Assembly (NCBI GenBank): GCA_030619985.1 | Contig: JAUXAI010000026.1 | Location: forward strand, 1 to 16,380 | Reading direction: 5' to 3' | From: a bacterium | Lineage (GTDB): Bacteria > UBP18 > UBA7526 | Length of the DNA stretch: 16,380 nucleotides | Shown: positions 2,146-12,559 of the stretch, piece by piece | Layout of the letters: every line of letters begins with the position of its first letter | Numbering within the stretch: position 1 is the first letter of the stretch | Translations under genes and position numbers: made by a program | Notes under the pieces: generated by a model | Seen by the model: only the letters and a program-made list of their open reading frames with translations | Told to the model about the DNA's origin: nothing | The model's database searches: none

Positions 2146-2237
2146 ATCTGTGCTAATCTGTGATTTTAATATCTGCGCCAATCTATGTCTGAGTTTATCT
2201 GTGATCATCTGTGCTTTAGAATCTGCGCTAATCTGTG
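2146..2237 (+). repeat. Array of ATCTGTG-like dimers, 10-bp phased
   Basis: Eight copies of ATCTGTG or close variants (ATCTGCG, ATCTATG) start at 2146, 2156, 2171, 2181, 2197, 2207, 2221 and 2231. They form four pairs. Within each pair the spacing is exactly 10 bp, and the pairs recur every 24-26 bp. The array ends 15 bp before the next start codon. The same pair arrangement recurs at other gene borders in this window. Confidence 0.8.
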
Positions 2238-2252: not shown

Positions 2253-3461
2253 ATGAAAGTTGCTTTTGTCAGTCCTTCCTTCTGGAGTGGGAAGAGAAAA
2301 GATTTTCATAAACCGGGGGATCAGATATATGACCATCCTCTCCCTTTAGAAGAGAAGGGAACCTTAGTAAGGTGCATCAAGAGCATGAAGAGGTTAAAGG
2401 ACCAGGACTTCACCTTCATTATTATCTCCGCTGCTACCCGGCCCGAGGTGGAGGATGAGGTAGACAGAAAAATAAGAAGCCTGACTGAGAAAATAAAAAC
2501 CAAATTTAATATCAAGTTCTTCGGCTATCAGGAACTAAGGAAATTAAGAAGATATCTGAAGAGGAAGAAAAAGAAAAGCCTCTTAGAACCTCTCCGTATG
2601 TATGGCTATGCCGGAATAAGAAATATGTGCCTTTTGGCTGCCCATATCCTGGGAGTAGATATTGCCATCTCCATTGATGACGATGTAGTTTTTGAAGACC
2701 CACATTATCTGAAAAAAGCAAAGGAGTTCATTAGCAAGAAGAAAGGTAAAGATAGAATACTCGCTGTCTATGGACCATATAAGTATGGAAAGAAAGGTCC
2801 AGAATGGGAGAAGATAGAAACCCCCGTATGGAGAACCTATTGGGATAATGTTGCTCCTGCGCGAAAGGCCTGGGAGAAGTTCATCCTCTCCAAGGGAAGA
2901 CTAAAAGAAACCTCCTATATTGTGATGTCCAACATCGTAGTCCATAGGGACTTCTTTGCCAAAGTTCCTCTGGATCCAGAAATAAATAGGGGGGAGGATA
3001 TGGACTGGGTGGTGAATGCCCGGATGTTTGGCTATAAGTTCTTCGTAGATAATAAATTACATGTCAGACATCTCCCTCCTCCCAGGACCCATCCTGACTG
3101 GAGATTGACCAGAGAGGATATTAAGAGATACATCTATGAGCGGGAGAAGGTGCACTCCTTAGAAAAACATAGGGGGATCCCAAAAGAATACTTCGACCCC
3201 TTTCCCGGTGAGTTCTTAAAGAAGGATTTGGAAGAGAGGATCTTCAAGTCCAATATCATGCTCGCCATGGATTCTTTAATTAAGAAGGACTTCGAAGGAG
3301 CGAGAGGGTGTCTGGCAAATATCCATCTAGCAAAGTACAAGGCAAGACCGAAATTCGATCCCTATGAGCATATGATCAAGTTTCAGAAAGTCTGGGAGCG
3401 ACTAATGAACTATATTGAAAAGCATCGGGATGAATTACAGAAGTTAATATTTAAAAGTTAG
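2253..3461 (+). CDS. GT-A-type glycosyltransferase (GT2-like)
   Basis: A 402-residue soluble protein with no signal peptide or membrane segment. A nucleotide-sugar-binding DxD-like motif is visible as AISIDDDVVFEDP, Asp142-Asp144. A later acidic motif, RGEDMDW (246-252), matches the catalytic-base region of GT2 and GT27-like enzymes. Between them is an acceptor-side region rich in Tyr and Trp (GPYKYGKKGPEW). The last 110 residues, helical and Lys/Arg-rich, may be an accessory domain. A sugar-transfer role in surface glycan or glycolipid assembly is inferred from the fold; donor and acceptor cannot be told. SD sequence AAGGGG (2241-2246) lies 6 bp before the ATG. The gene stands alone between two repeat-filled intergenic stretches, with no neighbouring glycan genes, so it is probably a single transcription unit. 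Confidence 0.72.
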   Translation: MKVAFVSPSFWSGKRKDFHKPGDQIYDHPLPLEEKGTLVRCIKSMKRLKDQDFTFIIISAATRPEVEDEVDRKIRSLTEKIKTKFNIKFFGYQELRKLRRYLKRKKKKSLLEPLRMYGYAGIRNMCLLAAHILGVDIAISIDDDVVFEDPHYLKKAKEFISKKKGKDRILAVYGPYKYGKKGPEWEKIETPVWRTYWDNVAPARKAWEKFILSKGRLKETSYIVMSNIVVHRDFFAKVPLDPEINRGEDMDWVVNARMFGYKFFVDNKLHVRHLPPPRTHPDWRLTREDIKRYIYEREKVHSLEKHRGIPKEYFDPFPGEFLKKDLEERIFKSNIMLAMDSLIKKDFEGARGCLANIHLAKYKARPKFDPYEHMIKFQKVWERLMNYIEKHRDELQKLIFKS

Positions 3462-3492
3462 CCAGTTTGCCAGTTTGCCTGTTAGCCAGTTA
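3461..3492 (+). repeat. Four tandem octamers (GCCAGTTT-like)
   Basis: The units GCCAGTTT, GCCAGTTT, GCCTGTTA and GCCAGTTA run head to tail. The first base is also the last base of the glycosyltransferase TAG stop. ATCTGTG, ATCCGTA and ATCCGTG follow at 3518, 3528 and 3539, spaced 10 and 11 bp. Confidence 0.75.
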
Positions 3493-3570
3493 TCTTTTAT
3501 CTTTTACTTTAAGTTCCATCTGTGTTAATCCGTAATCAATCCGTGTCAATGCTTAATATTTATGCTCCCT

Positions 3571-3593
3571 AGAATGCCAGCGAAGCGCATTCT
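3571..3593 (+). repeat. Hairpin with CAGCGAAGC loop
   Basis: A 7-bp perfect stem AGAATGC/GCATTCT encloses CAGCGAAGC. A related sequence, TCC-GAACGAAGTGA-GGA, follows at about 3604-3620. The GCGAAGC-type loop recurs at 4237-4253 and, as GCAAAGC, inside the gene at 9462. No T-run follows. Confidence 0.55.
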
Positions 3594-3627
3594 GTAATCC
3601 GTGTCCGAACGAAGTGAGGAAGAATGA

Positions 3628-3732
3628 ACCCCGCCCCTCATAGCACTGGTAATCTTGAGTTTAAAAAGCTTAGAATGATGAAGTCTTACTTTGTAAAAGT
3701 TATCTACTCGGATATAAAAGGAGGGGCGGGGT
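3628..3732 (+). promoter_or_regulatory. 12-bp inverted repeat that covers the RBS and start of the LOG-like gene
   Basis: ACCCCGCCCCTC (3628-3639) is the exact reverse complement of GAGGGGCGGGGT (3721-3732). The right arm contains most of the SD sequence GGAGG (3720-3724) and the first two bases of the GTG start (3731). If one transcript carries both arms, the very GC-rich stem would hide the ribosome site. The interior of about 80 bp is AT-rich. The structure could be a translational switch or the ends of a tiny mobile element; only the inverted repeat itself is directly seen. Confidence 0.5.
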
Positions 3733-4260: not shown

Positions 4261-4542
4261 ATGGCTGATAAGGTGAGAGTCCATGCCATTTATGGAGGAA
4301 GGGTACAGGGAGTGGGCTTCAGGTTTACTGCCCAGAGGTATGCCAATGAAATAGGAATAACCGGTTATGTAAGGAACCTCTGGAGCAGCCAAGTAGAGAT
4401 AGTAGCAGAAGGGGGAAGGAAAGAGGTGGAGACTTTCTTGGAAAGAATAAGAAATGGTCCACTCTCTCATTATATTGACGATGTGGAGACTCATTATAGT
4501 GAATATACTGGCCAGTTCAGAGACTTCCACATCCGCTTCTGA
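4261..4542 (+). CDS. acyP: Acylphosphatase
   Basis: A 93-residue acylphosphatase (EC 3.6.1.7), which hydrolyses the carboxyl-phosphate bond of acyl phosphates. The signature GRVQGVGFRFTAQRYA (13-28) carries the phosphate-binding catalytic Arg21. GYVRNL contains the second catalytic residue, Asn39. The length is typical. ATG at 4261 is preferred over the TTG codon just before it, because AAGGA (4249-4253) lies 7 bp upstream. That RBS sits in a GAGCGAAGCAAGGA sequence related to the nearby GCGAAGC-loop hairpins. The gene follows the hairpin at 4202. About 130 bp of repeats separate it from the phosphoesterase, so it is probably its own unit or weakly linked to it. Confidence 0.95.
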   Translation: MADKVRVHAIYGGRVQGVGFRFTAQRYANEIGITGYVRNLWSSQVEIVAEGGRKEVETFLERIRNGPLSHYIDDVETHYSEYTGQFRDFHIRF

Positions 4543-4544
4543 GA

Positions 4545-4582
4545 CGCAGATGGCCACAGATTGAAAACGGATTTACACGGAT
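4545..4582 (-). repeat. Two 10-bp-spaced dimers of the ATCTGTG family, reverse orientation
   Basis: Reverse-complement words CGCAGAT (4545), CACAGAT (4555), AACGGAT (4566) and CACGGAT (4576) form two pairs, each with 10-bp spacing and 21 bp between pairs. Downstream, to 4665, the stretch is filled with CGTAACC/CGTTACC words (for example 4605-4617, 4636-4649 and 4655-4662). Confidence 0.7.
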
Positions 4583-6880: not shown

Positions 6881-6916
6881 AGATTACAGTGATATCAAAA
6901 GCAAGATTACAGTGAT
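6881..6916 (+). repeat. Direct repeat AGATTACAGTGAT x2, left flank of GxxExxY gene
   Basis: Two identical 13-mers (6881-6893 and 6904-6916) with a 23-bp period. The second overlaps the GTG/ATG start region of the GxxExxY gene. The matching words on the other side of the gene (7321-7356) are in inverted orientation. Confidence 0.75.
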
Positions 6917-7283
6917 GACTAATGATGAGTTGACAGAGAAGATTATCGGGGCTTGTTATGAAGTTCATAATGAATTAGGGCCTGGCTTTACTGAAAGAAT
7001 TTATCATAACGCCTTAAAAATTAGTTTAGAAAAACATTCCTTAGAATATGTAAGTGAGAAGAGTTTTCCAGTAAAATTTCAAGAAAGTCTGGTAGGTAAT
7101 TTTAGAATTGATTTAATTGTGGAAGATAGAGTAGTTATTGAGATTAAAGCACTGACGAGTATGATTCCTAAAATCTTTGAGGCTCAACTTTTATCATACT
7201 TAAAAGCAGCCAATCTAAAGGTTGGTCTCTTGGTTAATTTCGGCAATAGAAAGTGCCAGATTCGCAGATTAGTAAACGGGTAG
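6915..7283 (+). CDS. GxxExxY family protein (PD-(D/E)XK-like fold)
   Basis: A 122-residue GxxExxY protein, named for its signature, here GPGFTERIY (about residues 22-30). Further family motifs are FRIDLIVEDRVVIEIKA (about 60-76), whose Asp and Glu-x-Lys resemble the active site of PD-(D/E)XK nucleases, and EAQLLSYLKAANLKVGLLVNFG (about 87-108). The family is widespread in bacteria and archaea. It is often found alone or in mobile, repeat-rich or intron contexts; its biochemical role is not established. ATG at 6915 is preferred to GTG at 6912, because family members begin with a short stretch before ELTEKIIGACYEVH. No good SD is seen; the upstream bases are the 13-mer repeats. The gene is AT-richer than its neighbours and is flanked by inverted repeat pairs, consistent with insertion between RNase J-like and ligA genes. 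Confidence 0.92.
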   Translation: MTNDELTEKIIGACYEVHNELGPGFTERIYHNALKISLEKHSLEYVSEKSFPVKFQESLVGNFRIDLIVEDRVVIEIKALTSMIPKIFEAQLLSYLKAANLKVGLLVNFGNRKCQIRRLVNG

Positions 7284-7320: not shown

Positions 7321-9382
<2,062 letters not shown>

Positions 9383-9461: not shown

Positions 9462-10067
9462 ATGAATATCGAAAGAAAGATTGTTTTAGATTTAGAAACC
9501 CAAAAAGAGTTAAGCGAAGTGGGAGGACATCAGAACCTCCATCTTCTCAAGGTATCGGTAGTGGGGATCTACGATTACTCTGATGGGAAGTATAAGGCCT
9601 TTGAGGAAAAAGAGATTCCTCAGTTGGAAGAGATTTTAAAGGAATCTTCTCTCATCATCGGGTTTAATATCAAGCGCTTCGATTTCCCGGTTCTTCAGCC
9701 CTATTTTCAAGCAAAGCGAGAAAACAAGGTTCTCGAGCAAAGCGAGAGGCGTCCTTATCTTTCCCTCGATTTAGGGAAGGTTCCTTATCTCGATATTATG
9801 GAAGAATTCGTCAGGATAAAGGGACATAGAATAAGTCTCCAAAGCCTTGCCCAGGCTACCTTAGGGGAGGGGAAGTCAGGGAGTGGCCTGGAGGCCCTAC
9901 GCCTCTATCGTATGGGCGATATGAAAAGATTAAAAGATTACTGCTTGGACGATGTGCGCCTGACAAAAGACCTATATGAGTATGGAATAAAAAATAAAAG
10001 ACTCTACTATACCTCCCGCTCCTTGTTTGCTATGGGAAAGGAAACCATCTCCGTAAGCTGGGGATAA
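9462..10067 (+). CDS. RNase H-like DEDDy exonuclease-domain protein (YprB-like)
   Basis: A 201-residue protein with a DEDDy 3'-5' exonuclease core. Exo I is IVLDLETQ with Asp and Glu. Exo II is IIGFNIKRFDFPVL with Asp at the end of KRFD. Exo III is YCLDDVRLTKDLY, fitting the YxxxD pattern, where the second of the adjacent Asp residues is expected to bind metal. It resembles YprB-type RNase H-like domains (PF13482). Residues about 84-97 (AKREN...SERR) are encoded by two copies of GCAAAGCGAGA (9711-9721, 9737-9747). They look like an in-frame palindromic repeat insertion between exo II and a conserved strand. The gene lies between ligA and polX, suggesting DNA end processing; RNA as substrate cannot be excluded. 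The upstream SD is weak. Confidence 0.8.
   Translation: MNIERKIVLDLETQKELSEVGGHQNLHLLKVSVVGIYDYSDGKYKAFEEKEIPQLEEILKESSLIIGFNIKRFDFPVLQPYFQAKRENKVLEQSERRPYLSLDLGKVPYLDIMEEFVRIKGHRISLQSLAQATLGEGKSGSGLEALRLYRMGDMKRLKDYCLDDVRLTKDLYEYGIKNKRLYYTSRSLFAMGKETISVSWG
9704..9747 (+). repeat. Palindromic repeat pair inside the exonuclease gene
   Basis: GCAAAGCGAGA occurs at 9711-9721 and 9737-9747, 26 bp apart. Each copy lies in a small hairpin: TTTTC/GAAAA (9704-9708 with 9720-9724) and TCTCG/CGAGA (9731-9735 with 9743-9747, loop AGCAAAG). The reading frame stays open through it. Confidence 0.6.
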
Positions 10068-10086: not shown

Positions 10087-10131
10087 ATCTGTGATCTGTG
10101 CAAATCTGTTTTTAATCTGTGAGAATCTGTG
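10087..10131 (+). repeat. ATCTGTG-like words abutting the polX start
   Basis: ATCTGTG or ATCTGTT starts at 10087, 10094, 10104, 10115 and 10125, spaced 7, 10, 11 and 10 bp. The last word ends 2 bp before the polX ATG, so the whole 5' leader close to the start is repeat and no clear SD is visible. Confidence 0.75.
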
Positions 10132-11858: not shown

Positions 11859-11898
11859 ATCTGCGATCATCTGCGTTCAAAATCTGCGATAATCTGCG
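11859..11898 (+). repeat. Two ATCTGCG dimers between polX and rubrerythrin
   Basis: ATCTGCG starts at 11859, 11869, 11882 and 11892: two pairs at exactly 10 bp, 23 bp between pairs. It occupies almost the whole gap and ends 4 bp before the rubrerythrin Shine-Dalgarno site. Confidence 0.8.
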
Positions 11899-12524: not shown

Positions 12525-12559
12525 ATTATCTCTGCTAATCCGTGTCTAGGAGGTATTCT

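Follow-up and report, generated by a model that had tools for sequence, protein, structure and literature searches.

The arrays of short ATCTGTG-type words that recur at gene borders in the 16,380-nucleotide stretch of DNA analyzed here (the window) are probably the arms, mostly without a gene, of a family of small insertion elements, present in many bacterial phyla and organized around genes for GxxExxY proteins, a reading in which the action of the protein on the words is deduced from sequence. In such an element, an inverted array of CAC.GAT words would be followed by the GxxExxY open reading frame, encoding a putative minimal PD-(D/E)xK nuclease resembling Cas4, and then by an inverted array of ATC.GYG words, and the elements would sit between genes, mostly with a stop codon on one side and the next SD on the other. 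The gene-less copies, which form the majority in the genome of the window and number five in the window itself, consist either of back-to-back arms with an apex of 0-3 nt or of a single arm. The 7-bp word may serve as the recognition unit of the nuclease, which would leave the 3-5 bp spacers unread. GxxExxY would thus bind or cut the words and might spread the elements in trans, and the gene-less copies would derive from gene-bearing ones.

At 2146-2237 of the window (forward strand), the first-pass annotation had described eight heptamers forming four dimers with a within-pair step of exactly 10 bp, and this description is accurate. The words start at 2146, 2156, 2171, 2181, 2197, 2207, 2221, and 2231, with the one at 2181 (ATCTATG) one base off, the pair-to-pair starts are 25, 26, and 24 bp apart, and the array, which lacks an open reading frame, is followed by AAGGGG and the ATG of the gene at 2253. 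The other arrays of that description were also found: a half array, ATCTGTG-N3-ATCCGTa-N4-ATCCGTG, at 3518-3545 (forward), consisting of two exact words and one near-word; two ATCTGCG dimers at 11859-11898 (forward), with words at 11859, 11869, 11882, and 11892, lying between the polX stop codon and the SD of a rubrerythrin-like gene; and, in the reversed orientation ascribed to it, an array of CGCAGAT, CACAGAT, and CACGGAT at 4545-4582 (minus strand), which begins 2 nt past the stop at 4542. The half array adjoins an inserted hairpin module (about 3546-3596), past which an extra word is found at 3597-3603, and this module recurs as an insertion within the arrays of other junctions. In L059 (bacterium UBP18 UBA7526; genome G003), the closest named genome, which is from the same family but another genus and in which the gene order around the window is kept, only about 10 bp separate the gene pair that flanks 4545-4582. 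The array at 10087-10131 (forward), located directly upstream of polX, had been assigned to the same dimer plan; its words are indeed related, but it follows a different, fixed design of 45 bp (type A), which other genomes of the family also contain, with words starting at 10087, 10094, 10104 (ATCTGTT), 10115, and 10125 in steps of 7, 10, 11, and 10 bp. A lone ATCCGTG word is located at 12538-12544 (forward), directly before the SD of a ferredoxin-like gene.

The genome of the window was examined as sampled stretches, with gene calls from codon usage and five short contigs read as N, and most of the comparison genomes are incomplete assemblies. Seven exact ATCYGYG-N3-ATCYGYG dimers were found in the window, whereas 200 dinucleotide shuffles gave 0.00 on average, and the scan for this dimer across the genome (1.25 Mb) yielded 98+87 = 185 occurrences versus 0+1 for the reversed control pattern. 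The pairwise spacings in 672 kb of the genome peaked at 10 bp (115 pairs), with 63 pairs at 21-22, 45 at 31-32, and 17 at 7 bp and smaller peaks at 28 and 38, while four permuted control words reached at most 2 at any spacing. The shuffles and the reversed-pattern and permuted-word controls exclude chance or low complexity as the origin of the arrays. Words lying 10 bp away from an exact one follow the consensus ATC-H-G-Y-G, with T, C, or A at position 4, T or C at position 6, and the others nearly fixed. The words are also intergenic, as had been proposed: 252 were intergenic versus 112 coding in the first 284-kb sample, although 89% of the DNA is coding, and 17 dimers were assigned to coding DNA versus 98 outside it in a larger sample. 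Neither of the two outcomes named beforehand as refuting the observation, a missing 10-bp peak and similar abundance within genes, was therefore obtained. Dimers numbered 205 in a relative from the same genus (G002), 160 in one from another genus (G004), and only 7 in G003. The earlier impression that similar words are common elsewhere is borne out by 20 of 284 unrelated genomes, in each of which 10 or more dimers were found. A search of plasmid DNA with the array gave weak partial matches only, and type A was absent among 2.9 million viral contigs, which likewise contained no relative of the GxxExxY protein of the window; spread on viruses was therefore rejected.

A GxxExxY gene (TIGR04256; PF13366, PDDEXK_3), whose flanks share the design of the arrays, a likeness that had escaped the first-pass annotation, is present in the window at 6912-7283 (forward), and its product is predicted to have a Cas4-like fold. 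Its left arm (6882-6916, forward), which overlaps the start codon, contains two copies of GATTACAGTGAT, a word of another class, and its right arm (7321-7354, forward), with ATCACcaTAATC and AATCACTGTAATC, is inverted relative to the left arm and ends before the ligA SD. Residues D66, E76-x-K78, and Q91-x3-Y95 are invariant in 34 sequences, the structural model has a pLDDT of 95.7, and the nearest solved fold is Cas4 (E 3e-4); sequence and model thus combine the D...E-x-K core with the restriction-endonuclease-like fold that define PD-(D/E)xK enzymes. The fold and the D, E-x-K, and Q-x3-Y residues are shared with the Cas4/RecB-type nucleases; in contrast to these, GxxExxY has only about 120 residues and is found here outside a CRISPR context.

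The gene and the arrays occur together at the level of both genomes and genes. Among the 284 unrelated genomes, TIGR04256 was present in all 20 with at least 10 dimers versus 45 of the 264 others (Fisher 1.2e-14, uncorrected for phylogeny), and in a 53-genome set PF13366 was present in 18 of 18 unrelated array-rich and 4 of 29 array-poor genomes. This association could be due in part to shared lifestyle or assembly type, and the genomes are not phylogenetically independent. Those of the 45 array-poor carriers that were inspected had other words. At the gene level, where at least four 8-mers had to be common, in inverted orientation, to the two 220-nt flanks, inverted words were found on both sides of 24 of 34 GxxExxY genes versus 9.9% in a control set of 435 genes (Fisher 4e-15), and 11 of 14 further loci had inverted flanking words. 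The design of the arms is equal while the words differ (CACAGAG/CTCTGTG, CGCAGAG, CGCCGAT, CACGAAR, and CACRGAT), and some arms outside the window are perfect 30-nt inverted repeats. Plasmids carry such genes as well, with CACAGAG-type arms in Bacteroides finegoldii, with CACGGAT arms in Treponema saccharophilum, and, in Sphingomonas parapaucimobilis (L355, NZ_CP155749.1), between fabD and fabG, from which 33 and 2 nt separate it, and without strong arms. In G002, a GxxExxY open reading frame is located at the apex of CACGGATagaCACGGATaacaaCACGGATagaCACGGAT..ATCCGCGataATCCGTG (L269), and a near-identical copy of that left arm is also present gene-less, with the apex 'tt'; in G004, the open reading frame lies between two type A arrays (L220). 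In these two cases, gene-bearing and gene-less copies share words; different words flank the remaining GxxExxY genes of the family. Several counts stand against reading the arrays as parts of such elements: the genome of the window has 4 GxxExxY genes versus 95 array loci in 904 kb, two of the three of these genes that were inspected have arm words not of the ATC type, and the array-poor G003 likewise has 4 GxxExxY genes.

Across phyla, the word class followed the protein tree. When a script labeled 32 of 47 GxxExxY proteins with one of three word classes, word class changed 6 times on the tree, where the least possible number is 2 and shuffled labels gave a mean of 14.8 (0 of 200 as low). Of the GAT words, 11 of 12 were in one deep clade and, of the GAG words, 12 of 13 in the other, in agreement with a first tree that had hand-checked labels, and the contrast between the two clades persisted after near relatives and long branches were dropped (p about 8e-4). 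Furthermore, one genome (G211) encodes a GxxExxY protein from each clade, each with the matching word, and arm spacing varies by word class as well (8-9 bp for GAG, 9-10 bp for GAT). This co-variation of word class and protein, as seen in sequence, strongly suggests that GxxExxY recognizes the words.

The arrays have a strict polarity. In clusters with both orientations, the order CACAGAT..ATCTGTG (R..F) was found 82 times versus once for the reverse order, with the halves meeting at an apex of 0-3 nt in 48 of the 82, and 137 of 221 clusters had a single orientation. Co-directional junctions of at least 100 nt contained ATCTGTG words only in 53 cases, CACAGAT words only in 10, and both in 65. 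The position at gene borders, which had been noted from the window, extends to the genome: ATCTGTG arrays lie mostly 15-23 nt before the start codon, directly upstream of the SD, and CACAGAT arrays start 0-3 nt past the stop codon. Within the family of the window, this hugging of gene borders would arise because the junctions were only a few bases wide, so that the ends of an insert touch both genes. Outside the family it was not found, the arrays in unrelated genomes being intergenic but away from gene borders.

The type A array has the plan ATCTGTGATCTGTG-N3-ATCTGT-N5-ATCTGTG-N3-ATCTGTG and occurs in 5 of 290 genomes, all from the family of the window. When copies were anchored on the first 14 bases, the three remaining words were present in 37 of 49; across 740 unanchored word positions there were 7 mismatches, and the spacers were close to random. 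A comparison of 337 orthologous junctions between the genome of the window and G002 found arrays in both species at 30, in one at 40, and in neither at 267, and several array inserts of 97-147 bp fill junctions that measure 3-12 bp in the sister; the flanks of occupied and empty junctions were too diverged to reveal a clean target-site duplication. At some junctions a different word type has taken the place of an entire arm while the register is kept, as with four CGCAGAT versus four CACGGAT. In shared arrays without such a switch, fixed word positions changed in 1 of 245 cases with G002 as reference and in 4 of 280 with the genome of the window as reference, compared with 9 of 67 and 8 of 84, respectively, in the spacers, and fourfold codon sites differ at 24%. 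The words change little relative to spacers and fourfold sites and are therefore kept, not merely inherited. If the gene-less copies were dead remnants, such purifying selection on their words would be unexpected, which counts against the element reading and calls for an additional explanation. The words might be preserved by a host function close to gene starts, given that junctions with ATCTGTG words only outnumber those with CACAGAT words only 53:10, or by the nuclease policing its own sites.

Two explanations had been offered for the spacing near one helical turn. The first, an array read by a protein, is well supported by the fixed words with free spacers and by the word class that tracks the GxxExxY tree. 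The second, growth by addition of fixed-length units, found no support, since what arrives and spreads is a whole unit of 45-150 bp with fixed polarity; simple tandem growth was rejected on the grounds that the spacers are not copies of one another and that type A is a single fixed 45-bp plan. A process that writes words de novo would have fitted the invariant words and random spacers, but it was dropped: some array units have identical spacers between copies, and because of this and the drift of orthologous spacers, copying plus selection suffices.

Alternatively, the arrays could be operators, that is, helically phased sites at gene starts for a host regulator or nucleoid protein, comparable to those of ArcA and PhoB, with dispersal being secondary. 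The phasing at 10, 21-22, and 31-32 bp, the fixed 45-bp design with free spacers, and the conservation of words in orthologous arrays are all consistent with this possibility, as is the excess of F-only over R-only junctions (53 versus 10; binomial 3e-8), 34 of the 53 being about 15-23 nt or less from the start codon. The boxes of ArcA, PhoB, and OmpR likewise comprise 2-5 direct repeats, spaced by roughly one helical turn and with skips of 22 bp (PMC3798270), but these have neither inverted arms nor dispersal. However, the OmpR/PhoB DNA-binding domain (PF00486, Trans_reg_C) was found in none of six genomes of the family, and an OmpR/PhoB operator was dropped for this reason; the genes downstream of the arrays are assorted, unrelated housekeeping genes, which rules out a regulon of related genes; and 40 of the 70 array-bearing orthologous junctions are occupied in one species only. 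Operators would also leave the arms of GxxExxY genes and the agreement of word and protein across phyla unexplained, and the dependence of GxxExxY arm spacing on word class speaks against them as well. We therefore regard this explanation as unlikely.

It also seems quite unlikely that the arrays spread by some mechanism of their own and that the GxxExxY open reading frames, together with others encoding four-helix-bundle proteins, insert into them as passengers. This explanation draws on the PF05635 four-helix-bundle genes, which are likewise found within inverted word arrays, in their case of other words of about 8-9 bp (19 of 29 genes). The PF05635 proteins are relatives of the 23S rRNA intervening-sequence protein. 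Their arm words include ACAAGTT, GTCAGTTT, ACAAATT, and CGGTTACTAA (C42, C54, and C47 of the genome of the window; C6 and C35 of G002), and such arms are probably the source of other word families in the same intergenic DNA. A half arm that both species share at one orthologous junction leads to a PF05635 gene in the genome of the window (L168, C9 about 2713-3100) and to a GxxExxY gene in G002 (G2C30 about 3040-3700), which likewise fits the passenger account. Thus, a GxxExxY open reading frame is not the sole route to a position within inverted arms. However, passengers would need neither a match between word class and GxxExxY clade nor a tight association with array-rich genomes. At the genome level, PF05635 is associated with arrays more weakly than GxxExxY (15 of 18 array-rich and 11 of 29 array-poor genomes). 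In the array-poor G013, pairs of opposed PF05635 fragments about 200 bp apart were repeatedly observed (C2, C3, C7, and C12).

RNA hairpin elements of the REP/BIME kind, in which R..F pairs would fold in the mRNA and stabilize it, terminate, or couple translation, are very unlikely: they would fit the 82:1 order with its apex of 0-3 nt and the perfect 30-nt repeats at some GxxExxY genes, but in the genome of the window opposed words mismatch at position 4 in 47% of cases (45.5% expected) and in 34 of 49 at the apex, opposed spacers pair below chance (1.28 versus 1.59 of 3, p=0.011), 137 of the 221 clusters have a single orientation, and Rfam, for the part of the window searched, had tRNA as its sole match. 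Pairing between units is thus not maintained, with both the covariation and the spacer-pairing tests negative, and the agreement of opposed words at positions 2 and 6 (7.7% versus 19% mismatch) results from the array-wide word type (GTG or GCG).

As a family of insertion elements, the arrays have partial parallels in several known systems. REP, BIME, and REPIN sequences mobilized with RAYT are also short, interspersed, extragenic inverted doublets that are non-autonomous and depend on a nuclease encoded elsewhere (PMC2817692, PMC3116915), and the inverted-doublet feature of REPINs is apparent in the R..F order here. In contrast, the RAYT enzyme is of the HUH Y1 type rather than PD-(D/E)xK, and the arrays studied here consist of 7-bp words with free spacers and without a pairing requirement. 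A REP/RAYT system was rejected, as the Y1 transposase (PF01797) had no matches in six genomes of the family, the best of which is 93% complete; in a comparison of genomes it was present in 15 of 15 versus 11 of 19, but in 0 of 6 in the family of the window. The intervening sequences of 23S rRNA (S23p/PF05635, for example in Coxiella) are similarly small elements, described as selfish, with terminal inverted repeats and one small open reading frame in the loop (PMC4990558), but they are located within helices of the 23S rRNA and RNase III excises them, whereas the elements here occupy operon junctions and, in the GxxExxY version, encode a different protein. Direct repeats of the heptamer TAACTGA have been reported in Beggiatoaceae, Cyanobacteria, and Bacteroidetes and were proposed to be sites for a post-transcriptional regulator (MacGregor 2015, PMC4679880). 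Like the present words, they are intergenic, mostly forward and directly before starts, occasionally reversed after a stop, and patchy across phyla, and they are missing from close relatives that have shorter intergenic regions (PMC4679880). Unlike them, TAACTGA is one exact word repeated head-to-tail every 7 bp without spacers, compared with ATCHGYG at mainly 10 bp and a minor 7-bp spacing here, and neither inverted arms nor a nuclease gene were reported for it (PMC4679880).

Text searches for the words in the searchable literature, outside which most subscription journals lie, found nothing relevant, no description of a link between GxxExxY and word arrays was found there, and the name GxxExxY barely occurs in it, in passing mentions only. 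We tentatively raise a wider possibility, which we hold with considerable reserve: selfish elements of an undescribed class, spread over dozens of bacterial families, may insert precisely between stop codon and ribosome-binding site and have GxxExxY proteins as the nucleases that read their words. Protein clade and word class would then have co-evolved, and the nuclease itself would preserve the words in copies that lack the gene, for instance through cleavage of sites that have been damaged. GxxExxY is annotated in very many environmental genomes and has been role-less so far, and the link to arrays offers it a testable job. The elements would be a likely source of puzzling intergenic repeats across phyla, and the pairing of protein clade with word class provides a natural experiment. 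If a 7-bp word is indeed read and DNA is spread into operon junctions with genes left unbroken, GxxExxY would represent a new class of mobile-DNA enzyme and possibly a tool.

Other repeated or shared DNA was observed in the same genomes. An element of about 110 bp at 3624-3731 of the window has the ends AACCCCGCNCCT..AGGNGCGGGGT, the right one supplying the SD of the next gene, and further copies are found at other junctions as well as near 9900-10000 in L059. Mini-hairpin modules, whose loops are of the AGCGAA(G)C type, are inserted at 9705-9752, within the gene at 9462-10067, and at 3566-3596 of the window; relative to L059, one of them is inside a coding sequence, and others break array spacers in one of two sisters. 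Stretches of L042 and L046 are nearly 100% identical to G002 contigs, while other genes have about 92% protein identity, reflecting either shared DNA or mis-binning. In L243 and L244 (G315, Desulfobacterales), the triplet ATCTGCGTTCATCTGTGTGAATCTGTG occurs many times with its spacers conserved and is apparently a recently spread copy.
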